From: Parelaphostrongylus tenuis
Taxonomy: Eukaryota; Nematoda; Chromadorea; Rhabditida; Metastrongylidae
Direction: 5' to 3'
Assembly: GCA_019055375.1 (NCBI GenBank)
Contig: JAHQIW010000865.1
Span: 1-64,000, forward strand
DNA length: 64,000 bases
Shown: positions 1,655-40,451 of the stretch, one piece after another
Position numbering within the stretch: position 1 is the first letter of the stretch
Layout of the letters: each line of letters starts with the position of its first letter
Made by a program: the position numbers and the translations under genes
The notes under the pieces: model-generated
The model's database searches: none
What the model was told of the DNA's origin: nothing
Seen by the model: the letters and a program-made list of their open reading frames with translations, nothing else

Positions 1655-1865
1655 ATATTTTAAGCTTTTCATGAGATTTGGCAAGGCACTATATAGTATT
1701 AGGCAGCTGTTTCGCCTATCTAGACTCATCAGTAATACGGTGCCCTTCGGTTCAGTCAATCCCTTACAGGGGATATAACCCTACTTCTAAAGGAATCTGC
1801 GCCAAATGATTCTAATAACCGGATGTAGAGTGATAAAATCCACGACATTGCAGTGAAATTGAATT
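1655..1865 (-). mobile_element. Hammerhead family 2 element, copy a
   Basis: This stretch shares order and sequence with 23690-23860: a hammerhead-like core, then GGTTCAGTCAATCCCTTACAG-type sequence, then a GGATATA-containing block and a CATTGCAGTG end. It is a single unit, unlike the inverted pair at 23.7 kb. The outer borders are uncertain because no flanking direct repeat was identified. Confidence 0.5.
1696..1738 (-). ncRNA. Hammerhead ribozyme-like, family 2a
   Basis: On the minus strand the order is GTATTA, CTGATGA, GTC-TAGATA-GGC, GAAA, CAGCTG, CC, TAATAC. Stem I (GTATTA/TAATAC) is a perfect 6 bp helix. Stem II has two Watson-Crick pairs and one wobble. The position normally U16.1 is C, so the cleavage dinucleotide is CC instead of UC and self-cleavage is probably lost or weak. 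Confidence 0.55.
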
Positions 1866-2245
1866 AACCACTGAACGAATTTATAAGAATTGAATCAAGA
1901 AAAGTGTCAGAATACAGAGGACATATGGGATATCCAGTTCACAGCAACAAAAATTCTAGTGAAATACTATGCCCAGCAAAAAAGGGGCCGTTGAATAGTG
2001 AACCCATACGTAAGCATTCGAGCCGTCCGCAACATGTGGACCTAGAAGAGTGCTTGTCGTCTTGAAAGAATCGAAGGAAAAAGTTTCTACATTCTTCAAA
2101 ATTATCAATTCCTCAAGAGCTTCACTAAAACGAAGTTACAGTGAGGTACTCAAAAGCAGAAACTGCATGTGATAAATTTCCGTATTGGCACCGTATGAGA
2201 AAAACTTCACTTAGTGGATCGAACACGTGTCCAGTTCGCTTTCAG

Positions 2246-2346
2246 GCGGGAGGTCTAAAGCCGTGCGCTCTCTGCAATTGGGTGTGAGCCAAAGTTCTTT
2301 GGGCGAGCGTAAGTTTCAACAATTCTTCGAATTTGTCGAATCAAAA
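2246..2346 (+). CDS. Internal exon, Ser/Lys-rich protein
   Basis: A strong acceptor (GCTTTCAG) precedes 2246 and a strong donor (AAAA|GTGAGT) follows 2346. The frame is open throughout (GRSKAVRSLQLGVSQSSLGE, then RKFQQFFEFVESK) and starts with two bases of a split codon. It ends in phase 0. Basic and serine-rich residues suggest a flexible region followed by a short helix. The nearby exon at 2899-3050 has similar composition on the same strand. I do not recognise a family. Confidence 0.5.
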
Positions 2347-2898
2347 GTGAGTGCAAGACGTTCGAGCTCACTGGTGATGCCAGCTACAATAGTTTTTGCT
2401 GGTCAGTGACACTTTACTACTGGCGGAAAAGGTGTGAGTGCTGCTTTCAACAGGAAAGTTGATGCGGAAATAGATAGTATGATTGAAACACATAGTAGAA
2501 CTGTTCTTAAGACAATGAGTTGGAGAACGTAATCAGAAAAGTCCAAATATGCATCATTTTTGGTCCATAAAAATTTAAAGCATACACATAAGAAAGACTA
2601 AGTAGGGATGGCGAAAGGACTGAAAGGGATGGCAGAGACGATTCGAACTGATCAGTTGATAGTCCCGTCAAAGTCTTCGTGAATGTTCCAAGATATCAGT
2701 AATTTTGCAAAATCATGTCTTCAAGGCATCAGCTCAAATTAGGAACGAAGCTTTCACCCATTCCGAAATCAAGTATAGATTTAGGAGTGGCGAAAGACGT
2801 AAAATCAGAGAAACTTTCTGACTTATATGATACATACCCTTTTTGTTTTGTTTTTCTTCACCTTGAAGCGGGCATATAAGACTACGCCTTAAATTTAG

Positions 2899-3050
2899 TT
2901 CGAAAACCCGACGATACTAAGAAATCAAAGTCACTGAGCTTGTCAGCACAGCCTTCAGCACTCACCGAAATTCCTCTGACCACCACAAAAACTGTCAGCA
3001 TTGTGAAGCCTGCTAGAAAAATTTCTGACGGAGGCGGATCGAAAGCCAAG
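2899..3050 (+). CDS. Internal exon, Ser/Lys/Thr-rich
   Basis: An acceptor (AATTTAG) precedes 2899 and AAG|GTCTGC follows 3050. The 152 nt read openly as two split-codon bases plus 50 codons, beginning RKPDDTKKSKSLSLSAQPSA and ending ISDGGGSKAK. This is low-complexity, basic and probably disordered. Its start phase does not follow directly from the phase 0 end of the exon at 2246-2346, so an intermediate exon is needed; an open frame around 2715-2790 is a possible one. Function unknown. Confidence 0.5.
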
Positions 3051-3539
3051 GTCTGCCATTTTGCGTTTTTTGTAGTTATTTAACATACAAAATGTCTTAC
3101 TGATATCTTATCTACTGTTACTCTTACTCGTCTTACTGCTATCTGTATCTTACTGTTTTTGGTGGTGTCACGACGTTTAATACGTAATTAAGAACATAAA
3201 GTGATATGCGATACATGAAACCTCAGGCGGAAGCATGACTATATTTCACCCATAGCGGATTCCTGTGCTATTTATTACTACACTGTCGAGGCCCTCTAGA
3301 TCCACTATCACTCTATTACCCACCGATGCTATGAATGAAAGCCGGTTCAACTCCCGTCTGCGGTTTCGGTTTGCGATCTTTCAACGCCCTTGATATACTT
3401 TTATTTATGTCATAAGCTCCGAAGACCATGGCCGCATTTCATGCTGGTACCAAAACTTTATAAGCAGGTGGCGTGTGGTTGAAGGTGCCTTGAGTCGCAT
3501 GCAAGGGATGTTTTTATCTTCGTTCACCGCTCACTAAGG

Positions 3540-3692
3540 CTTCCATCCCACCGGAGTCGATAAATCAGTTCCAGACTTCTCTAGGAGGTTAAGTAGCACT
3601 ATTCAATACTTCAGAGGAAGACAAATATTGAAGACGAATGCATGGCGCATCTCTCAGGGATAGCTCAACTCCAAGAGCCTCGTCCTTTATAA
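3540..3692 (+). repeat. SINE family B, 3' fragment
   Basis: The segment with AAGACGAATGCATGGCGCAT and the following CTC..GATAG..CAA..CCAAGAGC..CGTCCTTT tail matches the 3' part of the SINE B copies at 15.2, 20.6, 40.5 and 53.0 kb. The tRNA-like head is not convincing here, so it is a truncated or diverged copy. Confidence 0.5.
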
Positions 3693-3693
3693 T

Positions 3694-3890
3694 TTAACTG
3701 AGTTTTTTGCTATGTTCACTTTTCTCGTAAGTACTTTTCTCTGTATTTGTATTATCATAGTTTATATAGAACAATTTATCGTTGAACCTCATTAGCATCG
3801 GAAAGTCGTTTTTGTCTTCCTCCTGTGTGATACTTTTTCTGTGATCGTTGTCCAAGTAATTCATGATTTTTGACATCTCAGGTACAATCA
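3694..3890 (-). CDS. Candidate terminal exon
   Basis: On the minus strand a GCAG acceptor ends just above 3890, followed by an open frame of about 65 codons to a TAA at 3694. The translation is polar and non-repetitive (NYLDNDHRKSITQEEDKND, then FPMLMRFNDKLFYINYDN). It overlaps no known repeat in this window. No family is recognised and no partner exon upstream was confirmed, so it may be a chance frame. Confidence 0.3.
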
Positions 3891-5144
3891 CTGCGTTAGT
3901 AGTGTGAAGAGAGCTTCATATTCGATTCACCAATTGTTCTTTAGAAGACTTCCACTTAGACCTTCATCAATGACGAACTCAGTCCTTCACTGAGCCCTCA
4001 GTGAGCTAATCTTCAGTGAGACAAAATCAACGTCTTGAAGTACGATAGCAGAAATCTGCATTTATTACTTGTCTAGCGGTTTGATCGCCATTACTTTAGT
4101 CCCCTTATCAGCTGCTTTAAGATAGAGCGTCAATACCTCTCTTCTTGATAGGCAAATTACTCGCGATGAGAAGTTTAGAGAATGGCTTTATCAGCCGCGG
4201 ATTTTTTAGAATGCTTTAAGTTTTACTTACAACCTTTTTTTTGGTCATATACAATGTAAAATACAACTTCAATAGTGTTGAGATACGAGCACATCACATG
4301 ATATCAGGCGGGCTTCTAATCCTCGATAAGCGTTTTAGTGGCCCAAGTGTTATGCACTACGCCTTGCAATTCGTGTTTCCAATTTTTTCGGCAATATATA
4401 AACCGAGTAAGTATTATTAACAGTATATCGAGATCGGGGATGATCTAAGCAGAGATCGGCGTTTAACCTAATCAAGCTGGAGCAGTAGTAATCGTTGACA
4501 CAAGATTGCTGATAGCATCGACAGGGATCATAACAGGTTCTCAAACCAAAGGTTATAGTGGTGTAATAGATGATACTTCACACCTCGGGAAGAATAATCA
4601 CGTATTGGAAGCACAGCTGAGATTGGAATCATGCGCGCATCTCAGAATCCTTGTTGTGTACATTTCACACAGCCTTTATTCCTTCGCTTCAATCTCTAGC
4701 AGCATTATTTCAAAATCACTCCTTCGTCCTGCTTAGATATGTCTAGTTTCCTCAGCTTGGTTATTAATCTAAACAATAAGCTCGCTCTCATTGGTGGAAA
4801 GTTGAAGTCTAATCTCACGCATCCTATAAGTAAAGAGACCATAAACTGTTATTTTGAATTTGTCGTTCCTACCGGATATATCCAGTCGTACGAGAACTTT
4901 CTTTCATCTTCGTGAGGTACACAAGCACCCTGACCTCAACTAATGTGGCGGAAAGATAATTCCCATACATATGATTGCAGTTTTTAATGACTTTTTTACT
5001 TTCTTTCTAAGAGAAGTAAAAGTTACAATAAACCCTATCTTGAAGAACCGGCTTTTGTAACACTACGTAGCAGTGGAAGAGGTCTCAGTTATTTCTACGA
5101 TAAAATTTTTGAACATTTCTTCATTTTTAAGCCTTAATATACAG

Positions 5145-5204
5145 GAGAAGGAAACGCGAGCCAAAGGAGTAATATTAGCAGCAGAAAAACGCTTACCAGG
5201 AAAG
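5145..5204 (+). CDS. Candidate exon, GVILAAEKR motif
   Basis: The acceptor ATACAG and the donor AAAG|GTACAA bound exactly 20 open codons, including AKGVILAAEKRLPGK. G-V-[IV]-L-A-[AV]-E-K-R is the strand motif near the N-terminus of proteasome alpha-type subunits. The residues after it do not continue that match if the donor is ignored. A short motif in one 60 nt exon is thin evidence. No neighbouring proteasome exon was found, so this could be a fragment or coincidence. Confidence 0.3.
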
Positions 5205-5388
5205 GTACAAAAATCTTCAAATGAAGAACTAAGGAACAAAATTGCTATTTTACACAAGTACGGTAATTTGTGGAAGATTCCTGTCAGTAATAATTGTTAT
5301 CATTGAAAACACTGCAAATTTTGATGCCAAACATGACAGAATAACAACTTACAAATTTTTATTTGATTTATTTATTTGATCCGTCATC

Positions 5389-5612
5389 GGGGCGGCGTGG
5401 ACGAGTGGATGTGAAGTTGGTCACGGCGAGCTTTACCCCTACTTCTCTCCGGCAGCCAACAGCAACGTCCTAGGAGCGCCACAGTAAGGCTATCTTCGAG
5501 ATCACAAGGGAATTTGCTCAACGAGTAATATACGCCGTTCAAGAACAAGACGAAACGAATGAATGCTGGAAGTATTGGGATCCGCAAAGTAAAAAACCAC
5601 TGTGTTGATGGA
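5389..5612 (+). repeat. SINE family A, copy 1
   Basis: About 220 bp that begin with a tRNA-like head containing an A-box-like GAGTGGATGTGA. It continues through CTCTCCGGCAGCCAACAGCA and CGCCACAG, and ends AATGAATGCTGGAAGTA...GGGATCCGCAAAG. The same order of blocks recurs at 5.6, 10.0, 15.6, 17.4, 25.2, 43.8, 44.6 and 60.4 kb, in both orientations. Confidence 0.8.
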
Positions 5613-5624
5613 TCAAATAAAATA

Positions 5625-5828
5625 TTCTTTTCACTTTGCGGATTCCAGTACTTCTAGCATTCAATTCGTTTTTCGTCTTCTTCTCGAACGGCGTAAAAAA
5701 CTGGTTGAGCAAATGTCTTTGCGATCTCGAGGATAGCCTTGCTCTGGCGCTCCCTAGGACGTTGTTGTTGACTGATGTGAAGTGGGGGGGGGGGGGGGGG
5801 GATGAGCTTGGCCTGGGCCACGGTGCTT
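5625..5828 (-). repeat. SINE family A, copy 2, inverted
   Basis: Reverse-orientation copy lying tail-to-tail with the copy at 5389-5612, only about 12 bp apart. The pair forms a snapback structure of roughly 200 bp arms. An 18-base G run (5784-5801) interrupts the head region, where other copies have mixed sequence. Confidence 0.8.
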
Positions 5829-6690
5829 CCGAGAACTTAGAAAAGAAGAGGAAGATTGGAAAAAAACGTATCTTTACTTCAAAACCTTGCAGGTTCTTTT
5901 CCATAAGACGACACGAGATCAAAAACCGATCCCATTCGCTGAGCAAAAGCTATTCATTAGAGTGTTAGTGATCAATCAAAGCTGAAATCTCTGGCTAGCG
6001 CTGTCTGGTTGTTTCTTAGAGAGAATCTTTTTATGATGCTTTAAAATTCAAAATATGATTATGTTTTGCATAAGCTACGCAATCCAACCATTAGTTCGTT
6101 GGACGCACCAAAAGCACATGAACGTGTACAGAGAATCTTTTAGCACCAGAGGCAGACGTTTAATCTGGGGTTTCTTTCAAAGAGGAGGAACGGTTCTTAT
6201 CTGAACATCAAAACTTGCACTTCGCATATGTTCGCGAAAGAGCCAATAGCTCGATGTTTGTAGTAAAGCGACCTCATCCGGCCTGCGAAGCCTCCCCACC
6301 CCTTAGAATAGTCAAAATACCCATGTCGCGTATGTAATTTGATGTGTTTTCCCTGCCGCACTGCAGAACAACGATCCTTTCAGGAGAGCGCAGCGTTGGA
6401 ATCCATGAAATTTACGCTACCCATCGATTACTAATAGTCTAAAAAAGAGCTCTGGCTTGTGAGAAAAAATGCGTGCGTAAAACACAAATGCTTTACTTCC
6501 TTTGAAGCTTCACAAAAAATTTTTGAAATGCCGGCCATGTACGGCAGATTTGAGGTTTAGAATGGATACTTACACTCTTATGAAAAGTTCTTGTCCACCA
6601 AAACGGGCAGGTTTTCGAACCCGTGTGCTCTACTGGGAAAAGCAACGCTTGCGTAATCATGTTATATCCTTTTTATTCCCATTACTTCAG

Positions 6691-6772
6691 ACAGACGAGA
6701 GCTCTGCGAGCAGAAGATCCCGAAGTTGACAAAATAACAAAGGAAGTTGATGAGTGTATGAAAGCCGTTGAG
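6691..6772 (+). CDS. Coiled-coil gene, exon A
   Basis: The acceptor ACTTCAG (or ACAG four bases later) and the donor GTTGAG|GTTTAT bound an open exon. Its translation (RALRAEDPEVDKITKEVDE, then CMKAVE) has the charged heptad character of a coiled coil. It ends in phase 0, and the exon at 7154 starts in phase 0, so the two join without breaking the frame. The encoded protein is not recognised. The exons at 7154, 9458 and 9647 are its probable 3' continuation. Confidence 0.55.
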
Positions 6773-7153
6773 GTTTATTCTTTTCCTAATCAAACAAAAA
6801 AAAGGTTTTTTTCTGAAATGTAATTTCCAAACATATACTATTGCATACATTGAAAAAGGTGAAGTAATATTGAATGCCCGAAAGATGCGTCTCGTAATTG
6901 ACTCCATTCGTACTAACGGAATGTTGAGTTCAACGCATATTTGCTCTGCAAAATAACGTCACGCGAGGATCGTCTATCCATGCCACAGAATCGAACCAAA
7001 CTTTATGTCCACGGTAGAAGATATCTTCATCAATTGTGCTATACCTGTTCGTTCATATTGTAGTGGCATTAAGATATAGTCTTGATTAAACTTAAGATGA
7101 AAACAGTAGTCCATTAACAAAAAAACGCGCTTTAATATGAACTTTGGTTCCAG

Positions 7154-12340: not shown

Positions 12341-12341
12341 C

Positions 12342-15557: not shown

Positions 15558-15795
15558 TCGCAGTGTTTTTTTCACTGCACGGATCCCAGTACTTCTAGCA
15601 TTCAATTCGATTTTCGTCTTACACTTAAACGGCGTAGGATACTGGTTGAGCGATTCTGCTTGCAATATTGAGGATAGCCTTGCTTTTGGCGTTCCATTAG
15701 ACGTTGTGGTTGACTGCCGGAGAGAAGTGGGGGTAGAGCTTGGCTCTACTCGCGCCGTGACTAACATTACAACCACTCGGCCACGGCGCACCCCT
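15558..15795 (-). repeat. SINE family A, copy 4
   Basis: Reverse copy: CGGATCCCAGTACTTCTAGC at the 3' end, through TTGAGGATAGCCTTGCTTTT, to the tRNA-like head complement CACTCGGCCACGGCGC at about 15775-15790. Confidence 0.8.
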
Positions 15796-17407: not shown

Positions 17408-17630
17408 TTTTTTACTCTGCGGATCCCAGTACTTCTAGCTTTCAACTCGCTTACTCCTCTTCTTCAGCGTCACAGAATACTAGCGGAGCAAGTCCTTTGC
17501 AATTTCGAGGAGAGCCTGGTCGTGGTGTTCTATGGGACGCTCGTTGTTGACTGCCGGAGAGAGTTGGGGGTGGAGCTCGGCACCACGCGCGCCGCGACGA
17601 GCATCACAACTCCTCAGCCACGGCGCTCCA
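17408..17630 (-). repeat. SINE family A, copy 5
   Basis: Reverse copy from CTGCGGATCCCAGTACTTCT to CATCACAACTCCTCAGCCAC and GGCGCTCC. It retains the best-preserved central GGAGAGAGTTGGGGGTGGAG block. Confidence 0.8.
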
Positions 17631-20170: not shown

Positions 20171-20357
20171 TATCATTGCTTTTGCTCGGGATTCGTGAAA
20201 GATTGTTCAGCTTCTTACAGGTGCCACAGAATTTTGTGTCCAACTTAATATGTCAAACGAAATCTGTCCTGTCCTACATAAAAAGTACCACACATGTCAA
20301 CCTTATTTGGCTTATTGTTGGCTTCTACCACACTTTTTGGATATGATTGTACTAACC

Positions 20358-20580
20358 TTTCGTTTCGACTGCTTCTAAGACCATGCTCAAATTTCAGTAT
20401 GCTTGATGGTTATTTTTGTGCCATCCATGTGGTCTGTTGTGGGCGCTTCTAGAGTGCAATACACGTGCTTCGACCTTGCGGCTTCAATGCTGCAGTGCCC
20501 TATAGCAGACCACATGCATGGCTCATAAATGATGATGAGGCATATCGAAAGAGTTTACCTTGCATTAGCAGAGGGCAACG
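20358..20580 (-). mobile_element. Hammerhead family 1 element H1
   Basis: Shows the family 1 arm (CTTTCGTTTCGACTGCTTCT..AGACCATGCTCAAATTTCAG), then CCATGTGGTCTG, a decayed hammerhead on the minus strand, and a switch into the opposite orientation (CAGACCACATGCATGGCTCA). It is therefore an inverted partial dimer like H6 but shorter and more diverged. Confidence 0.6.
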
Positions 20581-20905: not shown

Positions 20906-21822
20906 GTAGTTAGACTCGCGGTCAATCATGCAATCTTGTAACTGAATTTTCACTACTGGTCAAAGCAGCGTGCTTATCATAACATTGGACAAGTTTTTCC
21001 ACTATGATTTTCTTCCTGCTATGCAATTCTACAAAATTGCCTGCCATTAATGTTTTTCTTAACGACGAAAATGCTTATAAAGCACAACCAGAAGAATGTA
21101 TTCTCAATCCCTCTTGATTTTCATCGATTATCGCACTAAAAATTACGACTTCCGTAAGTAACGTCAAAAAGCATTATCTACGAGTGCCATGAGTAAATAC
21201 TATATTCGTTGATATGCAGTCGCCAGCTAAATACTCAGATAACCTTCCAGTATAACTTGTCAAAGTTAATTATAAATCGGTAATTGATGGAATAGGAGCG
21301 GGTATGGCTTGCATACCTGTCAACTCCTCATTGGCGTATTAAATGCTGGTCGAGCTCGGTTACCATTGGTGTAGCAATAAGCCGTGACAGCATTAAGAGA
21401 TTGTTATATCTTGTTACTTTGACAGGAACAACAATATAATAAATCAATATCAGGGAATTCATAAGCCACTTTTCGTTCAATAAGTGATGACAGTGATTTT
21501 GTCAAGAAAGAACCAAATATTATCTCAATACCATTGCTATTTATCTTAGATTGTCTGCAGATGAACATAGATCGTGTGCTAGAGGTGCCCCACTAGTGAA
21601 GTGTTCTTTAGTTTGACCATCGTACCCACGGTCAAATAAGCCTTTTCACCTCTTATCCCAAAATCGCTTGGGTAAAAGAGGGTGGAACACTAAATCAGTG
21701 CATTGGTAGGCAAAACTGCATCAACGAAATATATAATTATTGTTTTTACGTCAGCGGATACATTCGTGGAGCGGTGCCGTTTTTTTTATACTGAATAGTT
21801 TGTTATATTCCCGGATGAATTA

Positions 21823-22730
21823 TCATATCTTTTCATGGGTTTTCTCACTAGAGCAATAAACACCAAATTTCTGAACCAGAAGTAATCAAAAGTGCTTAGC
21901 AACACTATTCAAAATATGCACCGTCAACTTGAACACATTATCGTCATCTTTTAGACAACAAATCATTACCGCATTATGCGGACTTTTCTGAGCTTTCTTT
22001 TGGTACCAGATTTTCCCATACATGCCGCATCATAATCATTAACGAGGGCTTTATCGAGATTTGCTGCTTTACGAGTAAATTGGGATGCGATATGCAAGGC
22101 CGCCTTTATAATCATCAACCGTGCAAAGTCTCAAAGATATTTGCCCAGCCAAGTAGCGTTTTGGCTCTTTTCTGAGTTTCGTGTCTGCGACACCAACTTG
22201 AAGGATCAGCTGCGCTCCGGACGTCCACAGAGTGTTGATTGAGAAGCCATCAATGGAGGTTCTGGCTGTGGTCATGCGAAAATCAGCAAAATTTTCAAGG
22301 CAGCAGGCAAGAAGTGGAAGAAGAGTCGATGGAGTCCTTACAAGCTCAGTGAAGCGCAAATGCGCAAATGCAACGACACCGCTCAAAAATGTTCAGTCGT
22401 CATCATTCCCAAACTGGTGGAAATGGGATGGGAACTGCTGGATCATATGCCGTATAGTCCTGACTTGTTACCTTGTTGCTATCCCTGAGCCTGGAGCACC
22501 TTCTGAGCAAGAAGTCTCGAGACATCAATCATTTGCGTCGAGGACCGACAACTATCTTTGAGTACAAGGATGACGATCTATGAGCGCGATTTGATTAGAT
22601 GCCTGAAAGATGACAGAAATATGTTCAGACTCATGGTGCATACTTTGAGTTTTGATAGGCAATTTTGACAATTTCTGGTTAATAAATTTGATGCTTATTG
22701 CTCTAGTGCCAAAATTATGAGAACGCCTAT
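21823..22730 (+). mobile_element. Internally deleted mariner with TIRs
   Basis: About 908 bp. The left end (21823 on, CACTAGAGCAATAAACACCA) and the reverse complement of the right end (CACTAGAGCAATAAGCATCA) form imperfect inverted repeats of about 60-70 bp, next to TA dinucleotides. Inside are transposase pieces in order: LRSGRPQSVD, KKWKKSRWSPYKLSEAQMRK, then directly KLVEMGWELLDHMPYSPDLL, then the C-terminus MPER*QKYVQTHGAYFEF. The segment between the YKLSEAQM linker and the last Asp motif is missing, so most of the catalytic domain is deleted. Stops are also present. Confidence 0.75.
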
Positions 22731-23611: not shown

Positions 23612-23657
23612 TGCTCAGAATAGTAATAATCTGATGGCCTGATATTATTATTCTGAG
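23612..23657. repeat. Isolated near-perfect hairpin
   Basis: GCTCAGAATAGTAATAAT and ATTATTATTCTGAGC are complementary over about 17 bases with one bulge and enclose CTGATGGCCTGAT. It lies immediately left of hammerhead family 2 element b. Confidence 0.6.
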
Positions 23658-23691
23658 CTTTTATATGAGGTCACGCACTTATATACTGCTA

Positions 23692-23731
23692 GCACGTGTT
23701 TCGCCATTACAGGCTCATCAGTAGCTCGGTG
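23692..23731 (-). ncRNA. Hammerhead-like, family 2b left
   Basis: Minus strand: GCTA, CTGATGA, GCC-TGTAAT-GGC (perfect 3 bp stem II), GAAA, CACGTG, then C and TAGC. The core is intact, but the U16.1 position appears deleted, leaving no proper UH cleavage dinucleotide. Confidence 0.5.
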
Positions 23732-23892
23732 CCTTCCGGTTCATCCAATACTTTGCAGGCGGATATACCCTTTACTTATAAAGAAATCGACACCGAATTC
23801 TTTTGATCACCTCATGTCTAGTAATCAGTTCATTCGATATTGCAGTGTCAAACAGTCGAGAGCTTAAGGGATTGATTGATCCAGAAGGCACC

Positions 23893-23935
23893 GTACTACT
23901 GATGAACCTGTAATGGCGAAATATGTGTCTAGTAC
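23893..23935 (+). ncRNA. Hammerhead ribozyme, family 2b right
   Basis: GTACTA, CTGATGA, ACC-TGTAAT-GGC, GAAA, TATGTG, TC, TAGTAC. Stem I is a perfect 6 bp helix and the predicted cleavage is after C at 23929. One A-C mismatch lies at the base of stem II and stem III is only two weak pairs, as in minimal hammerheads. Of family 2, this copy has the most complete set of required nucleotides. Confidence 0.6.
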
Positions 23936-25239
23936 AGTATAAGTGCTATAGTAGACCTCATAGAAAGGTTCAAAAATCTTTCTCGAACCATCGTAGAAGT
24001 AATGGAACAGCATATTTTTTCCTAATTAAGTAGCTGCGGTGCCCTGGTGATGTGTTAAGTTGCCTTCATCGTCTCAGACAGGTCTGATGTCATCTTGCCG
24101 ATCCCTGAATATGGAATGCTCGGTGAGATCAGAGCGCGGGATCAGCCTAGAAGCAGTCCTTCTGTGTATTTCACGGCAGCACGAACCACTAAAAAGTACG
24201 CGCTTTATTAATGGCGTGTGAAATTCCAGTTGGTGGAGTTTGGGGATTGCAGGAGGACAGTGACCTTATCAGCAGATCACAAGAAGACAACATTATCCAC
24301 TGAACTAGCCAATGCAAAAATTTCTTCATTAATTGGCCATGATTCCTGCAAGAGTTGAGCGGACAGACCTACTACTAACGTAAAGCGGCTATTGATTTGA
24401 CGTCCTTTTATGCAGGTAATTCTAAATTAAAGAGCGAATGTTTTATAAGGAAATCGACTTGAACAATAAGTAACAATGTGCCAGGTGAATCTTTCTATAA
24501 TCACTGCACACTTGCTCCAATATTGTTCAGCATCCACCTTCGAGTAGACCACAAAGCGCGCAGCGTTAGTGTTTTGCGAAGGGTCAAGCATTTCACTGGT
24601 TGTACCCGCGACCGGCACTTCATTACAATTCACAATCGACTCTTCACTAACACTGTCATAGAATCTTACTCCAGCTGAAATTTTCCAAGTAATGAATTAG
24701 TGTCATGGAAGCTTTTTTCATGCAAGTGCAATTACTCCAGAATGAGGTTATATGTTTTCGAAATGAAAGGAAAAAATTTTACTTTGGAAAAGCACTTTTC
24801 TCTGCACTAGTGTGTGAAATAAATGTAAAACACATACAGTGCAACATTTCATAGCTCTGTGATTAAGGAAACCATTTTTTAAATCTTCGTAGTAATCACC
24901 GTACGGAGATCCAAATAGATTGACTCCTCATTAGGTCATAGTCTTGCAAGTGGCATAGCAGTATCCCTTAACATTTCCAGAGCAGTTCAACAGTCTGTAC
25001 TTTTTTAGGCATCACACAATCGTGGGAATTTGCCCACGCATTCTGTAAAAGGTATTGAAATACTTCAGATGTTTGTCAATTCTACCTAGTCCTGCCACAG
25101 TCATTTTTTATCTATCAAAAGTAACGTTGACAATTTTAGATTGTCAGACAAAAAATTATAATTTGGTGTTTTTTGAAAACTGATGAAAATTCTGTGCTAT
25201 ATATTTTTTACTTTCTAACACTTTGAATAATCCGTCCTC

Positions 25240-25482
25240 ACAGTGTTTTCTTTCGCTGTGCGCGCCTCAGTACTTCTAGCATTCAATTCGTTTTTTTTTT
25301 CATTTTCTTCTTGAATGGCGTAGAACACTGCTTAAGCGAGTTTCCTTGCAATATCAAGGATAGCCTTGCTGTGGCGTTCCATAGGGCGTTGTTGTTGACT
25401 GCTGGGGAGAAGTAGGGAGTGGCGCTCGGCGCCACGCGTGCCGCGACGTGCATCACAACCATTCGTCCACGGTGCCCCAAGC
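25240..25482 (-). repeat. SINE family A, copy 6
   Basis: Reverse copy: CAGTACTTCTAGCATTCAAT, TATCAAGGATAGCCTTGCTG, GGGGAGAAGTAGGGAGTGGC, GTGCATCACAACCATTCGTC and CACGGTGCC head. Confidence 0.8.
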
Positions 25483-26675: not shown

Positions 26676-27074
26676 TAAAAAACTCAAATAAAGATTACCA
26701 GGCATATTGAAATTTGAGCTGTGGTCTTAAGAAAACACTCGAAACAAAAGATATGATATATTGAATATACTAGCCACGAGCATTCGAGTGTACAAACACT
26801 CTGTGTTTGGTGAGTTTATTACCGGACATAGAGTGTAAATCGTACGTCGTCGCTAACTCTTATTGTGGGGACTGGAGCACCCACAGAGATTAGCAAAAGA
26901 CGAGAAAGGGCAACTGCCGGACTGACGAGATCGCAAGATCGAAACATGTGTATCGGGCTGTATAAGTCAGCCCTCATTAACAGACCACTGACATGCGTGG
27001 CTCAAGTAAAGATTACCAGGCATATTGAAATTTGAGCTGTGGTCTTAAGAAAACACTCGAAACAAAAAACAAAT
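26676..27074 (+). mobile_element. Hammerhead family 1 element H2, tandem
   Basis: A 67 bp block (starting CTCAAATAAAGATTACCAGG at 26683) is repeated at 27001 with one mismatch, 318 bp apart, giving a head-to-tail partial dimer around one hammerhead. The whole is flanked by an 11 bp direct repeat GAATCAAATAA (26665-26675 and 27075-27085), read here as a target-site duplication. It lies in the astacin copy 1 intron between the zinc-site and Met-turn exons, in the opposite orientation to that gene. Confidence 0.75.
26915..26957 (+). ncRNA. Hammerhead ribozyme in H2
   Basis: GCCGGA, CTGACGA, GATC-GCAA-GATC, GAAA, CATGTG, TA, TCGGGC. Stem II is a perfect 4 bp helix closed by a GCAA (GNRA) loop. 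Stem I pairs at five of six positions. Stem III is a 2-3 pair minimal helix. The UA cleavage dinucleotide is permitted (UH). This is one of the best candidates for activity. Confidence 0.75.
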
Positions 27075-27297: not shown

Positions 27298-27307
27298 CTA
27301 TATAATG

Positions 27308-27580
27308 TTTCATAAATACCAGCCAAGAGCAATCGAGTGTAGAAATACTGTCCATTTGTGATTTCTTTCACTTGACGGCAAGTGTATATAGTGCGCCGTC
27401 GCCTAATCTATGTAAGAGGGTTGCGTTCCCCCAAGAGGATTGGCCTAGACGAAAGGTACTGCCTAAGTGACGAGGCTTCCAAAGCCCAAACACGAGTATT
27501 GGGCTCTATATTTGCCCATAACAGACCACATGCATGGCTCAAAAGATTATCAGGCATGATAAAATCCCTCCTTGTTAACT
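27308..27580 (+). mobile_element. Hammerhead family 1 element H3
   Basis: Shares the family order CCAGCCAAGAGCAATCGAGTG, hammerhead, GGGCTCTATA, AACAGACCACATGCATGGCT, AAAGATTATCAGGCAT. It is a single, 5'-truncated unit, 11 bases upstream (in gene sense) of the acceptor of the astacin zinc-site exon. Confidence 0.65.
27461..27504 (+). ncRNA. Decayed hammerhead in H3
   Basis: GCCTAA, GTGACGA, GGCTT-CCA-AAGCC, CAAA, CACGAG, TA, TTGGGC. Stem II (5 bp) and stem I (6 bp, one wobble) are intact and differ from other copies by compensatory changes. Two core bases are mutated (C3 to G and G12 to C), so it should be inactive. Confidence 0.55.
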
Positions 27581-28286: not shown

Positions 28287-28440
28287 GGCAAAGCAGGCGT
28301 CGGTAGTGCAATAGGTTAGCACGCGCGTCCGGAAGGTTGAGATGCGGGCTTGATTCCCGCCCGACGTCAAGGTTATAGACATCACTGTGCATTATTGTGT
28401 ATATTCGCAGTATTATACCACCGCTGAGAAGCTGTTAGGT
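28287..28440 (+). repeat. SINE family C, copy 1 (tRNA-like)
   Basis: The head 28297-28367 folds like a tRNA: acceptor GCGTCGG/CCGACGT, A box TAGTGCAATAGGTTAGC, and a perfect 5 bp T-arm GCGGG-CTTGATT-CCCGC. The anticodon arm is imperfect. A tail (ATAGACATCACTGTGCATTA) shared with the copy at 30.5 kb argues for a SINE, although a tRNA gene cannot be wholly excluded. Confidence 0.6.
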
Positions 28441-30002: not shown

Positions 30003-30250
30003 GACCTTTCCTTCGAGTGCTTTATTAAGACCAAGCTCAAATATTAATAAATCCTCTCATTATTATTTGAGCCAACATGTCTCTATGTAAGGGAGCAGAG
30101 CTCCCGAGAGAACTGACTTCAAAAATATCGAAAGACGACGGGTTCTGCCCGACTGACGAGTCTGTAAAGACGAAATAAGTGTATCGGGCTGTACAAGATC
30201 CCTTACTAGACCACATGACATGTTGGCTCAAATAATAATGAAAGGAGTTC
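30003..30250 (+). mobile_element. Hammerhead family 1 element H4
   Basis: Left end: an inverted arm (TTCGAGTGCTTTATTAAGAC...ATTTGAGCCAACATGTC). Then a switch at GGGAGCAGAGCTCCC into the forward unit with GACGACGGGTTCTGCCC, hammerhead and GACATGTTGGCTCAAATAAT. An 18 bp imperfect direct repeat (GAAAGCAGTTCATAAGGA at about 29989 versus GAAAGGAGTTCACAAAGA) may be a duplicated target but overlaps the element end. Confidence 0.65.
30147..30189 (+). ncRNA. Hammerhead ribozyme in H4
   Basis: GCCCGA, CTGACGA, GTC-TGTAAA-GAC, GAAA, TAAGTG, TA, TCGGGC. Stem I is perfect (6 bp), stem II perfect (3 bp), and the core is complete. Stem III is very weak (one wobble and one A-T pair), so activity is possible only if the minimal stem III is tolerated. 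Confidence 0.65.
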
Positions 30251-30537: not shown

Positions 30538-30690
30538 AATGGGCGTCAGTAGTGTAACGGATAGAGCAAGCGCTCCCGGAAAGAGTGAGGTGTGGGTTCT
30601 AGTCCTGGCTGACGCCAAAGTTTCACACATCACTCTACATCAATGGGTACATTTGAAAAATAATCACTACCGCTAGAGCCGTTTAACAAA
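30538..30690 (+). repeat. SINE family C, copy 2 (tRNA-like)
   Basis: Bases 30543-30615 form a tRNA-like cloverleaf: acceptor GCGTCAG/CTGACGC perfect 7 bp, A box TAGTGTAACGGATAGAGC, anticodon arm CGCTC-CCGGAAA-GAGTG fully paired, and T-loop TTCTAGT with a partly mismatched stem. The base before the would-be anticodon (GGA) is C, not the universal U33, so it is not a normal tRNA. The tail TCACACATCACTCTACATCA matches copy 1. Confidence 0.6.
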
Positions 30691-32662
30691 AAGAATTTCA
30701 TTTAATGAGAGTCTTCGATATTGCTGTTCATCTACACTTTTCAACTGTCAGTGCAAATTTTTCAATACTAAGTAAAGCGTTGTTTTTTTTAATGTTGTGA
30801 AACCTACCCTTTACCTCTTTTATTCAAGATAACGATGTAATCCCACTCAGAGTATCTTTCTCAGAACCGAATACAAGTGTTTGCTTCTATTCGTTTCATC
30901 GCCTGCTTGATGGTGGCAAGCTCGTAGTACTCTTGTATGAAAATTGAAAATTTCATAGGTTTAGCACCTGATCAAAAAAAAATTCTCCGCACTGTATGAC
31001 TTGTGCCATTTTAGAAATAAGTGTATATATTTCAAACAAGGTTAAAAAATCGGAAATACTGCTACGTCTAACTATTCGTGCTATGCTAAAGGGCATACAT
31101 TATAAGATTGCAGTGCAGTTTCTTTCTAATATCAGAAACCCTTGCCGGCTAATTCTAGCGGTAAGGTTTGATGCGAAATAACCACGGAATTGTTGGGATA
31201 TAAGCAAAAGAGCTTGATGTATGTGAAGTCGATTACTAGCAGGATTAACTTTCTCACGGCGGTGCCCAACGCATTACAGCAGCGAAATCCTAGCTCAGTT
31301 CTTCTCTCAGCCGTGTATTAATCATAATCGGTGGCTTACAAGATTAATTTGTCAACAGATATGATCTGGTTAAGAAAAGTCGTTATAGTTGATCTTAATT
31401 TCGTTGTCCAAATCACAGCGTTGGCCTCTACTTAAAGCCTGAATCGGTTTTACAGAGATCATTGACGAGTTTTTCTTTCCCTTAGAAAATTTCTACTAGT
31501 ACAAATGATTCGTGTGGTGTTAATTTAGGCGGCAAATTAGTTCCATCCAACACCTCTGGATGATGCTCCGTCGATATTTTGCATTCAGTTGACAACTGCA
31601 CCGCCAGTCACCGAGTTAGACTTGGGTCGTTTCACAGTCCTTTTTTACCTAAGCGCTTCCAATTTTGCGAGCTTTTATTCTGTCTCATGACACGTTTTTT
31701 CTTTCATACTTCAAAGAATGGAGTGAGAATGGCATACATTGCATGAACTATATATTGCGAACGAAATGGAAAAAAAATTCGAAGAGGTAGAGGAACATTC
31801 CACTTCTGTTTTCTGAGTGACAAAAAATGGAAAAAATATTTGTTGAACAAGAGGTGAACATTTCTAAAATTTCAATCTTTCGTATTTCCTTTGATCACAT
31901 ATGGTAATACGATATGTTCAATTGAGTCCCTTATATTCCATTTTTGTTCAGAGTTGCTGAGGATGGCGTTACGAAATACGCTGCTAGCATAATGATAAGA
32001 ATTCCTGGAGTAAAATCCTTAAATGATTTATAATAAAGTTATTTATAAATGAGCAGAATACGTTCCACATTGTTTTTTTCTACTTTTTACTGCTTTTTAA
32101 ACATTTTATCGCATGATATTTAGTTTCTTTCTCAAAGCACATTCGAGAATGTTGTTGACAGTATTTATTGAATATTACTAACAAAGTATATTAATAGCAT
32201 AACGGATTGCGTTTCGGTAGTGTTACCTCGTTTCTGAGTCGCCCTGTTGTTTCATGATAAACCAATTGTTATATGAACCGGTCGCACTGAGTCTTACATT
32301 GGCGAGCTCCTTATTACAATTACGTTCCGCTTCCGAAAGAATTTACTTAATGAAAACTGACAGCATAAGCAGCAATGCCGTTTTTTTCATTTATGGTTGG
32401 AATTCTTTGCGAAAGTCGTGAATCAAATGCATTACCTTTCAACAGTGTGATTACATATGGCTCGAAAAGTCGAGAATATGCGCATTCTATGATTTTCGAT
32501 ACTAATACCTTAACACCGCACCACCAAGTGGCCTTTTTGTAGCTATTAGGTCTTCTTATAAGTCTCGACATTAGAGCAATAAACACCAGATTCATTGACC
32601 AGAAGTGCCTCATAATTATTTTTTGAGTCATGCATGTGGTCTGTTATAAGGCAGCTCAAAGA

Positions 32663-32706
32663 GCCCGATACACGTGTTTCGACCTTGGCAGTCTCCTAAG
32701 TCGGGC
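32663..32706 (-). ncRNA. Decayed hammerhead in H5, left
   Basis: Minus strand: GCCCGA, CTTAGGA, GACTGCCAAGGTC, GAAA, CACGTG, TA, TCGGGC. Stem I, stem II and GAAA are conserved, but the CTGANGA box has become CTTAGGA, losing the essential G5. Confidence 0.5.
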
Positions 32707-33043
32707 AGTACACTTCGTATTTCAGCCAATCCTCTCGGAGGAACACAACCCCTATAAAGAGAAAATGACGACGATACGAACGACGAATAAGTTGCCCCAT
32801 AACAGACAACGAGATGGCTCAAAAATTTTTTTTCGGCAGATTGAAATTCGAGCGTTGTCTAACGATAACACTCGAAGCGAAAGACACGATATATTTAACG
32901 ATATCACCCAAGAGCAAGCGAATGTGAGCTATGTTCATTCAGTCATATTTCCACTTTATGAAACATGTAAAAAGTTCATCACCGCCATCTCTTTGTAGCG
33001 GAGGGCTTCCCGCGAGAGTATTGGCTAAAAGACGGAGAGTACT

Positions 33044-33086
33044 GCCCAACTGACGGGACTGTCAAGGTCGAAAAAGTGTATCGGGC
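33044..33086 (+). ncRNA. Decayed hammerhead in H5, right
   Basis: GCCCAA, CTGACGG, GACT-GTCAA-GGTC, GAAA, AAGTG, TA, TCGGGC. The last base of CTGANGA is G and stem III is nearly absent, so it is probably inactive although stem II still pairs. Confidence 0.5.
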
Positions 33087-33744
33087 TCTACAAGTTGACT
33101 ACAACAGACTACATGCATGACTCAAAAAGTAATTACTAGGGGTATTGAAATTTAAGCATGGTCTTAAGAACACTTCAAATGAAAGGTATGACCGCAAAGA
33201 TTAAAATTGCTTAACATCAATATTCAAAGTTTGGACCATTAGCGATATAACAAAGTTTCTTCCAGAATTCTATCATGTAAAATCTATGAATTTCTACGAA
33301 ACGATGAAAAAACTTTCAATGAATAATGAAGATACGCGCAATTGTGCGCCCCGAGTGTGAAAATCAACGTTTTTTCGCTTCTAATCGCTTCTAGAAACAT
33401 TAAGAAAGTGTCTTCGAAAAACATGTTCTGCATTGGAATCGTCGAGATTTAAGCTACCTAATAATTATTAACAGTCTGAGAGAGATATAAAAAGTCTTGT
33501 CTTTCATGGGTTAAAAGGTGCATCATTGTGACAGAATGATAGCGACTTATCAAAGATCTGAAGGGAATAGCTCACCCTTTCGGTGCTGTTGAAAGGAAAT
33601 TAGCCATTATCTACTGGCTAATCCTTCACTTTGAGGGGCTTTTGAATGATGTTGTTGAGCTGTTCTAACTGCTTTTGGCTGAATAATTTGATATTTATTG
33701 CTCTAGTGCCAAAACTCATGAGAAGACCTAATAATTGAATATTG

Positions 33745-36200: not shown

Positions 36201-36508
36201 AGGGAGCGGAGTTTGCGCAGGTATAGTGATGTATGCCACCAAAGACGAAATTCTGGTTCAGTATTACAAAAAGAATCGACTTATGCAGAATTTTGCGATA
36301 TTTTTGAGGAAGCCGAAATCTTAAAATAGCAGCTGAACAGCACACTAGAATTCGGAGATCTTTGTGAGATTAATGCGAAGAAAAAGATCGCTTGCAAGTT
36401 CTGGGATCTGCACAGTGTGTGAGGACAGTTACGTCGAACACACTTTAAGGAAATCTTACGAATTTTCCAGGCTGAGTTAGAAAGAGATGCGCTCAATTAT
36501 TGGTGAAG
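36200..36508 (+). pseudogene. Degenerate coding remnant, unknown
   Basis: One + strand frame stays protein-like over about 90 codons but is cut by two stops: ESTYAEFCDIFEEAEILK, stop, QLNSTLEFGDLCEINAKKK...ACKFWDLHSV, stop, GQLRRTHFKEILRIF then ERDALNYW. Minus-strand frames overlap (36055-36496) but are less protein-like. It looks like an old coding relic, possibly from a retroelement; no family is assigned. Confidence 0.3.
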
Positions 36509-36519
36509 AAAATTGAGTG

Positions 36520-38480
36520 AAATCTTGGGGACATTGCCTTTTCAAGAGCTTGGACGTATTTCTATGAGTGAATTGAAACAGTATTCTCTTTGGAGTTGCT
36601 GAGTTGCTCACTGAGCGACCTTAACTGAAAGAAATAAACAAAATATTGCAAAGTAAGGACTTGCATGGCAATTTGAACTTTGGAAGTCGTTATGACTCAG
36701 AACTCGATAATGACATCATGCTACTAATATAAAGTCGTACAGCAAATATTGTCTCCTACGCTCACCTGACGAACGCTTCATTTTTCCAAAAATTTTTAAA
36801 TACAAAGCTGTATAAATCAACGACAGTATCCCATTTCTTTTTTTTGGGAAAGCATTATACTTAGGAGTTCTGACTGGTAGAAGAAGCAGTTTATATGCGC
36901 TTAGCTTTAGCTATCATTCTACATCACTTTAATTAGTTAATCATTTCGCAACACCAACGGGCACAAGTTAGCAAAACAAAAATGGATTGAAGGAGAGAAG
37001 AAACAGAAGAGCGATAAGATGAGGAACAGCGGTAAAAGGCTCATGCCTTGTTAAGATGTTCAAAACATTCAAAATTTCCTAGAGAGGAAATTTGCTAAAG
37101 GACTAAAGAGGAATTGGATTTTAGTTCTCAATCATTTTGAACTAGCAGGATAGTCGCAAAAACCAACGAGACTACAGAGTGCACCATTCCAACATTCCGA
37201 GCATAGCCCCACTGACATTTAATGCACGATCTTGAGAAAAAGTGACGGAGAACGCTACGTGAGCACAGAAAAGCAAATTATACTTCTTCAAAATCTTTCA
37301 CAGAGAACTTTCACTTGAGTGGCAATGATCTATGGATCGTAGTCATCCTCAGTTTGGTCAATACAGTTCCTTAATAGCTGATATGTGTCCGTGTGGGTTT
37401 GAAGTAGTCGTTATTTTTGCATAGTATGCATCAGATTAAGTGTGTCATTGCGAATGTGTCAAGTACATTGGGACGTACTGTAGCGAGAAGAAGAGAAATG
37501 AAGACGCCATCGTTGGGGAACGATTTTTCATTCGAACTGTCCCCTAATACGAGCTAAAACGTATTTGCATTTGTTGCAGACTTTCTTGAGCCATCGATCA
37601 TCTGCATGTAGCTGACAGGAAAATTGAAAAGGTAGTAACTTGCGCGTTGCTTCGTTCTCCGTCTATCCAACAATTCTTCTTATTCATTGCAGACTCAATA
37701 GCACTCGAAATTGCAATCAAATAGCATTATTGTAGTACTCCGGTTTCTGCATTATTATGCTTTGATTTGCTTGCCGAGTGACTGTTTGGGAACCTAAAAA
37801 GAAGGTCTATAAATTGATTGTAAAACAATAAAGACTGACTGACCTTTTCAGAACCACCAGTTTCAATCACCACGCGCAGTGCAAGTCGCAGCCGGTGCGC
37901 GATTTTTGCTATTTTATCGAGGTTTTTCACCGTTTTCGACTTGATTATAGGTTTCCTTTGTGATATTTGGATACTTTACAATTTTCTTTAGCATCCTATC
38001 TTTAGGCAATTTTTTGAATACTAAATTGTTTTATTTTTTTAGTGCTAACATTCATGTTTGGGCAAAAAGCTCTCTTTTACTACGTAAGTACGCTGTGATG
38101 GCTAACTAGTAATTGCAATAACTTGAACATAGAACTGATGATATAAATCTACCAGTTTTGATATAATTTATCATGTAACTACTTGAAAGTCGTAATAGCG
38201 ACTGAAAATCGGCGCCCAATAAGTAGTTTGCTCAAATAAGGTGCTCCACAGTTCGTGAATCACCGATAACTTTTACCATGACTGAGTTTACTACTTTTCC
38301 CTTATTCCAACCCATACTCAACAAAAGCGTATTTTTTATTCTTATTACAGGAGGCATTCTAAAAGTCATTAGATAATAGCTCAAATCCCAATAATTTAAA
38401 CGTTGTATTTTGGATGGCATTTATATTTAATGTACCTTGTAGGAATGTTTATACTATTCGGTTATCGTCCCCGCCCCCCA
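36520..38480. other. No gene recognised
   Basis: No convincing exon, repeat family member or RNA gene seen. Short frames (37727-37930, 38232-38420, both -) are unsupported. Confidence 0.35.
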
Positions 38481-38486
38481 CCCCCT

Positions 38487-38622
38487 CTTATTAGTGACTC
38501 ACACCCACACTGAACCCTACTTCATAGTAGGGGATGGGAAGACATGTGTGGTGATAGCACATGATATTGTGTTTTCACCACCTTTTTTCAGTCGATGGAT
38601 TACGGCTGGTACATAAAAACTG
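38487..38622 (+). repeat. Repeat family D, copy 1
   Basis: CACTGAACCCTACTTCATAG and a hairpin-forming TGGTGATAGCACATGATATT...TTCACCA match 52.85-53.03 and 53.34-53.51 kb. The hairpin pairs at about 12 of 13 positions around TGATAT. A C-rich tract (CCGCCCCCCACCCCC) precedes it. Confidence 0.5.
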
Positions 38623-39718
38623 ATCCATCTCACGACCGCTTTTAAACCCTGTTATAAGCATTCAGTAAAATCTGTTAAGAATGTGGAATAATAGTGGTGA
38701 TAATTCTCCTATTTGGACTCATCGTAGCACCCTCCCTCGGTTTTTTACTCGCTCAAATCCTTAAGGCTATCCAGCTAAGGTTCGACGGACTGGGGGAGGC
38801 GGGTGGAGCCCCACTGATGAACGGGACGATACCTCTGAAACGCTTATGGCTCTTACGTGAAAACCTCGGTAAGGCTTGAAACATTTTCCAGATGACACTG
38901 AATGTTTATAGCGAGGTCAAAAAACACGTCGATGAGATGGGTATCGCATATACGCTGTTATAGTAAAAACAAATTTTTAACTCACATTCAAGCATTTTTC
39001 GTTCAAGCAAAGCTTTTTCTAAAAATTTAGTAATTACTCGATAGCGCAAGCTTCGACAAATTTAATAGTGCTGTTGATTTTCAAGAAAAATTTTTTGCTG
39101 ATCTGCAACACTGAATTAACCGTTCGGGAACCATATGGCTCATATTAACCCATGGGTGTATTTTGCTTCCCAGAGTTTTCTACGGTGCACGCATAAGAAG
39201 TGGAACTATGGGGAGATTACTTGGTAAATTAGGGTTCTAAGAGAATATCATCTTTATCCAATGATAAAATACCACTAAAGAGATTTCTGTGGAAATTTTT
39301 ACGGACTTTTTAATTGGAAAGAACGCACATGTGTCAATAAATGAAGTATTTTCAACAACAACAACCACCGCATCTTCTCAGATGCTAACACAATCTACAA
39401 CAATTATTTATCAATTAGTTCTTTCTAAGCTGTACTTTTATACTTGTTCGATAGCTTGGGAAATGCCGATTTTTATGGCATGCTTAATTCGCGGTTCGAC
39501 CTTCATAGTACGTTTTCCTAACGTATAAAGTAGAATGTTTTGCAGCCGTAGTTTATTTTTGAAATTCACAGCGGAATTTTTGATGTTACAATGTGATTTC
39601 TAGATTAGATTATACCTTTATCTCGAGTGCTTTGTTTAGACCACGCTCAAATTTCAATATATCCTTTCATCATTATTTGAGCCAACATGTCATGTGGTCT
39701 GATAAGGGCTCTTGTACA

Positions 39719-39760
39719 GCCCGAGACACGTGTTTCTCCTTACAGACTCATCAGCCGGGC
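39719..39760 (-). ncRNA. Hammerhead in H6, left, 1-base deletion
   Basis: Minus strand: GCCCGG, CTGATGA, GTC-TGTAAG-GA, GAAA, CACGTG, TC, TCGGGC. Compared with the right copy it lacks one C at the end of stem II, which breaks the closing G-C pair next to the core. Otherwise it is complete. Confidence 0.6.
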
Positions 39761-40046
39761 AGAACCCGTCGTCTGTCGATCTTTTTATAGTCAGTTCTCT
39801 TGGGAGCCTTACACTCTTTATAGAGATTTATTGACGACGTACGTCGTGGTCCAAGCAAGCACTCGAGATAAAGGTATAATTATGATAAAAGTACCAGCAA
39901 TGAGCAATCGAGTGCACAACACTCTGTGTTAGGTGAATGTTTCACTTGACATAGAGTGTAAAGCGTACGTCGTCGATAACTCTTTATAAGGAGTGTAAGG
40001 TTCCCGAGAGAACTGACTATGAAAAGATCGACAGACGACGGGATCT

Positions 40047-40089
40047 GCTCGGCTGATGAGTCTGTAAGGACGAAACACGTGTCTCGGGC
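40047..40089 (+). ncRNA. Hammerhead ribozyme in H6, right
   Basis: GCTCGG, CTGATGA, GTC-TGTAAG-GAC, GAAA, CACGTG, TC, TCGGGC. All core bases are present, stem II is a perfect 3 bp helix, stem I is six pairs (two G-U), and predicted cleavage is after C at 40083. Stem III is a palindrome CACGTG, which cannot fold fully on itself but could pair between two molecules, as in minimal stem-III hammerheads that work as dimers. Confidence 0.8.
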
Positions 40090-40451
40090 TGTACAAGAGC
40101 CCTTACCAGACCACATGACATGTTGGCTCAAATAATGATGAAAGTATAGATTAGATTAGACAGAATATTACTGGGTGGACCCATTCAAACGTATCTTCAG
40201 TGAGATAATTGTCCACTGTTCTTGAAAAACCCACTAATCCTTACTAACTGAGTGGAGTGTAGTCACATCGTATGAGATGTGGTCGAATTTTTCTTTCTTT
40301 TCACTCAGCAGGGCTTCTTCACTAAACTTTTAGTAATCATTCAGCAGCTTAAAAACGGGAAAATTTAGCACTGAATTTGATTAGTAAGGAGACTTTCATA
40401 TTAAGTTTTGCCAACAAGAAAAAAGATCACGTTGTGCTCAAGAGCGTATCT

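Follow-up and report, generated by a model that had tools for sequence, protein, structure and literature searches.

Head-to-head retrozyme insertions with two fixed start sites in the nematode Parelaphostrongylus tenuis: probable mobilisation by Penelope-like elements

Introduction

The window analysed here is a 64-kb stretch of the nematode Parelaphostrongylus tenuis (positions 1 to 64,000 of contig JAHQIW010000865.1, assembly GCA_019055375.1). At eight places it carries short repeats with hammerhead ribozymes, several of them built as two arms set head to head. The elements themselves are ordinary, in that they represent new metazoan retrozymes of the kind that lacks long terminal repeats (LTRs); the novelty lies in the anatomy of their insertions. 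The outer ends of these insertions fall at two fixed places behind the ribozyme cut, usually one end at each, and the same arrangement is found in the Penelope-like elements (PLEs) of the same genome.

Which enzyme mobilises animal retrozymes? Two 2020 papers and a 2024 review (PMC7229834, PMC7761336, PMC11722881) leave the answer, in their available text, as a guess between a long interspersed nuclear element (LINE) and a PLE. Judged from sequence comparison, the P. tenuis repeats are probably metazoan-type retrozymes mobilised by the PLEs of their own genome, a reading to which a probability of about 0.75 is attached.

Hammerhead ribozymes of the window

When the window was searched with a covariance model built on 12 hammerheads of the same genome, all of them lying on other contigs, 11 matches were returned (Table 1), running from 84.5 down to 24.3 bits (E 4.7e-24 to 4.6e-5, values that are rough owing to a short calibration), before falling to 12 bits (E=0.35). 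The sequence-only reading that preceded this work had counted eleven hammerheads at eight places, and both the count and the places were recovered. In order, the layout runs CTGANGA, stem II (three pairs), GAAA, stem III (two pairs and a loop of four bases), NUH and stem I (six pairs); the available text of PMC7229834 gives a helix III of two pairs closed by a tetraloop as an invertebrate hammerhead trait. CTGANGA, GAAA and NUH are all kept in the copies at 40041 (+), 26910 (+), 30141 (+) and 23887 (+). The remaining copies are degraded, with, for instance, altered core bases at 32655 (-) and 33038 (+) and GCC at the expected NUH position at 1688 (-). The cut positions predicted beforehand agree with the model after 40083 and 30183, and that of the 26.9-kb copy moves by one base to 26952 from 26951.

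Rfam at its gathering score reported no hammerhead in the window, a threshold that was dropped as a sole test, being too strict for the window copies. In E-value mode Rfam placed Hammerhead_1 at 40047-40089 (+) with 31.1 bits (cut-off 34, E=9.6e-4) and Hammerhead_3 at 30137-30181 (+) with 25.6 bits (E=0.41), and no other hammerhead in the window up to E=10. Twelve young genome copies in 6 loci exceed the Hammerhead_1 cut-off (34.9 versus 34 bits), and in young copies the core is intact. The loose core pattern is retained in 65 of 69 near-full-length copies, six of these rows being window copies, two of which recur as locus L001.

Table 1 Retrozyme insertions and their hammerhead ribozymes in the window
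Feature	Position	Strand	Remarks
Left target-site duplication of the youngest window insertion	39601..39612	+	TAGATTAGATTA, 12 bp, perfect repeat
Family-A retrozyme, head-to-head, minus arm then plus arm	39613..40146	.	Left outer end at site 2, right at site 1; unit alignment -[1-116]-[201-320]+[80-320]+[1-69]
Minus-arm hammerhead	39711..39766	-	78.4 bits, E 3.8e-22; one base lost before GAAA
Plus-arm hammerhead	40041..40097	+	Predicted cut after 40083; 84.5 bits, E 4.7e-24; Rfam Hammerhead_1 31.1 bits
Right copy of the 12-bp duplication	40147..40158	+	Perfect repeat of 39601..39612
Family-A retrozyme, head-to-head	30003..30249	.	Left end at site 2 (unit 111), right at site 1 (unit 63); imperfect 13-bp duplication overlaps the right end
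Hammerhead	30141..30197	+	Predicted cut after 30183; 75 bits, E 4.6e-21
Older family-A insertion, head-to-head	32613..33191	.	nhmmer
Hammerheads of 32613..33191	32655-32712; 33038-33094	-; +	57.3 and 52.7 bits
Older family-A copy, single orientation	26683..27065	+	Slightly over one unit; 67-bp direct repeat 318 bp apart
Hammerhead of 26683..27065	26910-26966	+	Predicted cut after 26952; genome-trained model
Older family-A copy	27306..27551	+	nhmmer; hammerhead 27455-27512, 38.4 bits
Older family-A copy	20353..20499	-	Hammerhead 20446-20499, 24.3 bits, E 4.6e-5; nhmmer 20353-20487
Family-B insertion, head-to-head, self-complementary arms	23640..23975	.	Hammerheads 23678-23733 (-), 41.3 bits, and 23887-23943 (+), 50.2 bits
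Degraded family-B hammerhead	1688..1744	-	26.7 bits, E 7.9e-6

A large and partly young retrozyme group

The repeats were taken at the outset for small, probably non-autonomous retroelements, and this description holds: they are multi-copy and apparently non-coding, with a unit of ~320 bp and a hammerhead of type I (young copies match Rfam Hammerhead_1) whose stem III is very short, the unit length falling within the ~150-450 bp of a retrozyme repeat. No retrotransposon frame was seen in the 320-bp unit, in which a primer binding site and polypurine tract were not searched for, and Pfam gave nothing above cut-off on ten window frames picked from the longest. The unit has no coding for reverse transcriptase (RT) or GIY-YIG domains, which places it outside the PLEs proper; these domains reside in separate PLEs of the genome.

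The two families that had been proposed are recognisable as types A and B but are not separate. The family-A unit matches three B-type loci (L056, L061 and L066, each searched singly over its ~3 kb) with E 1.5e-16 to 1.2e-5 in a comparison that covered 4 of 12 family-B loci, and since these matches extend beyond the hammerhead itself, A and B are homologous. A claim of covariation between the families was dropped because the aligner had put gaps wrongly; by eye, a single compensatory pair is seen, in the outer stem, which reads GACCAC/GTGGTC in family A and GACCTC/GAGGTC in family B.

The genome searched amounts to 481.5 Mb in 5105 contigs. First-look candidates numbered 610 for a 143-bp family-A query and 3000 for a 157-bp query taken elsewhere in the A unit; in both cases the primary matches among the best 40 scored were 97-100% identical. 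Family B gave 1169 candidates, those scored being mostly 70-85% identical, with one copy at 99%. On these sequence comparisons the group is large and in part young. Tandem genomic copies exist as a minority (L028, L023, an arm of L017 and L107 in family A; L061 and L066 in family B). The exact ribozyme pattern occurs 0 times in viral contigs.

The density of hammerheads in the window had been regarded as striking. It is raised ~2.4-fold over a rough background and is not extraordinary: outside their focal insertions, 36 loci (144,135 bases minus 18,125 in those insertions) hold 9 hammerheads at E<=5e-5, or 14 at E<=0.1, in ~126 kb, which gives ~4.6 expected in 64 kb against the 11 seen. This background adjoins young insertions and is not random.

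In their small size, multiple and partly tandem copies, apparent lack of coding, low GC and duplications of >4 bp the P. tenuis elements resemble the metazoan non-LTR retrozymes of 170-400 nt with type I hammerheads (PMC7229834, Cervera and de la Pena 2020, in its available text). They share with the plant LTR retrozymes, as outlined in the part of PMC7761336 available, a non-autonomous nature, the hammerhead and, probably, RNA circles. None of the other plant features, namely type III hammerheads, LTRs and 4-bp duplications, is found here, where the type I model fits and duplications measure 11-21 bp. The difference from published metazoan retrozymes is that inverted pairs dominate and that the ends point to PLEs. 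The words 'inverted' and 'head-to-head' occur zero times in the text of PMC7229834, and a literature search of titles and abstract starts, with most subscription journals outside it, found no report of inverted retrozymes or of a two-site pattern in retrozymes.

Anatomy of the retrozyme insertions

Insertion structure was read from 48 family-A loci, 37 from the first query (the window's own included) and 11 of the 31 new places found with the second query, which covers a different part of the unit. The unit is numbered from the base after the ribozyme cut. Rows were dropped for L002-L008 (the same places as L038-L044), for nested BLAST blocks, for clusters of <86% identity and for all but the longest cluster per locus. 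Doubtful cases that were kept are L035, called inverted on a 38-nt minus block; L016, with a 21-bp duplication in a TA tract; and the pair L021 and L022, a single segmental duplicate that enters the counts as two non-inverted loci with two duplications. These last two lie on different contigs and carry an identical insertion in identical flanks, owing to segmental duplication or to haplotypes that were not collapsed. The duplication of L020 is a chance match.

The predominant shape is head-to-head, a minus arm followed by a plus arm with the 3' sides outward, in 36 of the 48 loci. Target-site duplications (score >=9) flank 33 of the 48 and measure 11-21 bp (median 13, 74% AT). The outer junctions concentrate at two places on the template, with 53 usable ends of 56 lying at unit positions 57-68 (site 1, 27 ends) or 105-122 (site 2, 26 ends). 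In 28 of the 36 inverted loci one end lies at each site, as it does in the two youngest window insertions. The same site is used twice in L020 (1/1) and L009 (2/2), and at least one end lies elsewhere in six inverted loci (L010, L018, L019, L035, L044 and L113). Where both ends are at a site (n=30), the split is 28 one-of-each to 2 same (p 9e-7). With a duplication score >=8 the figures are 24 of 28 one-of-each, 1 same and 3 other. The first sample alone gives 19/21 at duplication score 9, and the independent second sample of 11 loci gives 7/8 of its inverted members; because the bins were set on the first, agreement of the second is of importance. The pattern of these scars indicates a single priming event per target strand, at one of two places, with the choice made by one strand depending on that of the other.

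The junctions carry traces of priming. Exact microhomology averages 2.15 nt, versus 0.68 when flanks are exchanged among ends of one type (highest value 1.17 over 2000 exchanges). Of 65 arms with an outer end at a site, 58 run >=10 nt across the predicted ribozyme cut and 22 exceed one unit (by span, small indels included). Since the arms cross the cut, the RNAs that served as templates were not linear monomers left by cleavage but circles or uncut multimers, a circle being likely. An apparent class of arms stopping at the cut (unit 1), seen in BLAST blocks, was discarded, as junctions show L017 and L027 continuing past it and L043 reaching about three bases past.

Inner joints vary among the 36 inverted loci, with overlap in 12, blunt joining in 3 and filler in 21. 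Arm lengths within pairs are negatively correlated (rho -0.45, p 0.017), and site 2 arms average 328 nt versus 242 nt for site 1 (p 0.06). Inner ends fall within 57-122 in 27 of 72 cases (p 7e-4), which fits a lap round a circle and also pausing at hairpins.

Penelope-like elements of the same genome

A search for GIY-YIG domains gave 1723 candidates, of which the best 150 were scored and all 150 lay above cut-off. Among these best 150, neighbours within 8 kb are arranged minus-plus in 20 of 22 cases, minus-minus in 1, plus-plus in 1 and plus-minus in none. One pair, L055, was read whole and contains an 893-codon frame with RVT_1 and GIY-YIG domains, a minimal hammerhead after the frame, a 12-bp duplication and a tail that, judged by eye, is confined to one end. 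Measured from the PLE ribozyme cut, 17 of the other 19 minus-plus pairs have one end at 56-72 nt and the second at 103-125 nt, and the same 17 have duplications of 12-16 bp (18 pairs examined, the duplication being absent from L092/L093). The two misses are L092/L093, where one side is interrupted by a retrozyme and the other runs on into PLE sequence, and L104/L105, where the alignment is too poor to measure. Among the named of 102 matches, some of them part-length, the PLE frame is nearest to proteins of Ancylostoma (up to 63%), Necator (59%) and Haemonchus (up to 59%), the top match of all 102 being a contig at 73%; scoring covered the 7993 candidates with the most words in common.

The sequence that interrupts the PLE end L092 (contig C411) is that of a retrozyme end, and retrozymes thus insert into PLEs as well. 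In the window itself a decayed head-to-head PLE lies at 45985-46606 (-) and 48985-49973 (+) (tblastn E 3e-11 and 7e-9), with a hammerhead-like relic at 50197-50220 (+), ~220 bp beyond its endonuclease end.

Retrozymes and PLEs therefore present the same order at nearly the same spacing, that is ribozyme cut, ~60 nt, site 1, ~45 nt and site 2, with duplications of similar size. The retrozymes show the integration features of GIY-YIG PLEs, with inverted arms in one duplication, a tail on one end only, two internal starts and a hammerhead at a fixed distance before them. The difference is that PLEs encode a protein and have a minimal hammerhead, whereas the retrozyme is ~320 nt long and apparently non-coding, has a fuller hammerhead and lacks any detected PLE sequence. 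Published work, in its available text, describes PLEs with inverted pseudo-LTRs (pLTRs), one of which optionally bears a tail, and 8-10-bp duplications, and proposes self-priming with an antisense template (PMC3846280, Arkhipova and others); in P. tenuis the tail stands on one end in 17 of 19 pairs. In experiments with a purified PLE protein, both DNA strands were cut and extended, AT-rich targets were preferred, and synthesis began internally on the RNA at two neighbouring sites that bound the segment known from the genome as the tail (PMC11167929, Frangieh and others, in its available text).

In the predicted fold of the retrozyme circle, site 1 falls in the apical loop of a hairpin at 25-87. 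The hairpin that follows has site 2 in its loop region, the GGUAU part of this site being paired. Folding of four PLE ends likewise puts site 1 in a hairpin loop at ~27-82 in three.

Proposed mechanism

How might a PLE enzyme mobilise an RNA that seems to encode nothing? A tandem genomic copy would be transcribed, and the hammerhead together with a host ligase would yield a ~320-nt circle, by analogy with published metazoan retrozymes. A PLE protein would bind this RNA and cut both target strands about a dozen bases apart, in keeping with the duplications observed. One strand would then prime through its 3' end at site 1 (57-68 nt after the cut) and the second strand, likewise through its 3' end, at site 2 (105-122 nt), both aided by a few bases of pairing, the positions and the microhomology being those seen at the junctions. 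Each complementary DNA (cDNA) would extend up the RNA, at times beyond one full lap, as some arms do, and the two cDNAs would be joined head to head at variable points, a shape that is observed and that some repair pathway would have to produce.

A number of observations weigh against PLE mobilisation in this form: (i) 12 of the 48 loci are not inverted, and the one-of-each pattern is broken in 8 of the 36 that are; (ii) the site bins were fixed after the first sample had been viewed; (iii) arms past one lap exclude a cut linear monomer but fit a circle and an uncut tandem transcript alike; (iv) the published PLE start site is non-homologous to the cut DNA in the available text of PMC11167929, versus the microhomology found here; (v) no sequence is common to the retrozyme unit and the ten PLE loci compared, in which the hammerhead model has no match either, so that recognition by a PLE would need structure or position; and (vi) the folds are single minimum-energy predictions that carry little weight alone, and the fourth PLE end is predicted to fold otherwise, without the hairpin.

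Alternative explanations

The most probable of the alternatives concerns the template. With copying under way from site 1, site 2, which lies downstream, would be the single site still available, and the one-of-each pattern accordingly suggests that both strands prime on one RNA molecule. The pattern could instead be set by the enzyme, with a separate RNA molecule for each strand or with a pair of protomers that each favour a different site, which is rather unlikely while keeping some weight: the PLE protein is modelled as a dimer, and top and bottom strands are described without a difference in start site (PMC11167929, available text). The data fit the shared-RNA and the two-RNA or two-protomer models alike, the negative correlation of arm lengths being a weak hint of a shared template.

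A second alternative is that a LINE RT moves the retrozymes and that the head-to-head copies are a by-product akin to L1 twin priming. In L1 twin priming both target strands prime on the RNA, as a by-product with a variable second start, and the result is an inverted insertion inside one duplication. The P. tenuis insertions share this last feature, microhomology at the joints is compatible with LINE twin priming, and a frame in L019 presumably resembles a LINE endonuclease. Against this, inversion is here the main product (36/48) rather than a minority one, and the two starts have fixed distances behind the ribozyme that match those of the genome's PLEs, which makes the LINE explanation improbable.

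It is very improbable that the hammerheads are chance or dead motifs to which the repeats owe nothing. The window copies lie below the Rfam cut-off and most are degraded, points set against eleven matches at E<=4.6e-5 to a model not trained on the window, a loose core kept in 65/69 near-full-length copies, and young copies that exceed that cut-off. Least probable of all is that the repeats are DNA transposons or fold-back elements whose inverted ends are long and whose hammerhead is incidental, as the inverted arms and flanking duplications resemble terminal inverted repeats but the inner joints vary across the 36 inverted loci, the duplications are not of fixed length (11-21 bp) and tandem and single-orientation copies occur (L028, L023).

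Other features of the window and genome

Another repeat is present in the window in two copies with common ends, 21821-22714 and 32544-33714, and the retrozyme at 32613-33191 sits inside the second; read with table 9, the first copy contains what we take to be a mariner-like motif. Dispersed repeats occur at 15706-15792, 17543-17629, 25392-25478 and 60533-60619, the reverse strand of which presumably resembles the tRNA-derived head of a short interspersed nuclear element (GGCCGAGTGG). Two tRNA-like genes lie at 28297-28368 (Rfam tRNA, 40.1 bits) and 30542-30617 (ARAGORN, tRNA-Ser(gga)). Elsewhere in the genome, what we take to be the sequence of the nematode spliced leader SL1 has 102 occurrences, partly as an array; on contig C3131 the spacing is mostly 568 bp, presumably a 5S/SL1 layout. 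The leader and the relatives of the PLE frame both point to a nematode host, which is probably a strongylid.

Significance

The scars left by these retrozymes bear a specific mark, two sites with one per end, that is also borne by the PLEs of the same genome, and this points to the long-suspected mobilising enzyme. As a purified PLE protein exists, the question of retrozyme mobilisation is directly testable. A head-to-head insert, with one ribozyme per arm, should give no unit-length circle, so that many inserts may be dead on arrival.

For PLEs themselves the chances are evenly balanced that retrotransposition is dual-primed by design, with two docking loops per RNA, one for each target strand, and both cDNAs drawn from the same molecule, a single circle in the case of retrozymes, before their head-to-head joining. 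Retrozymes would then parasitise this step by carrying a ribozyme and two start sites at nearly the PLE spacing, without detectable PLE sequence. From this pattern, the PLE tail described as 'optional' looks like one member of an asymmetric pair, which would place a concrete constraint on how PLEs integrate.

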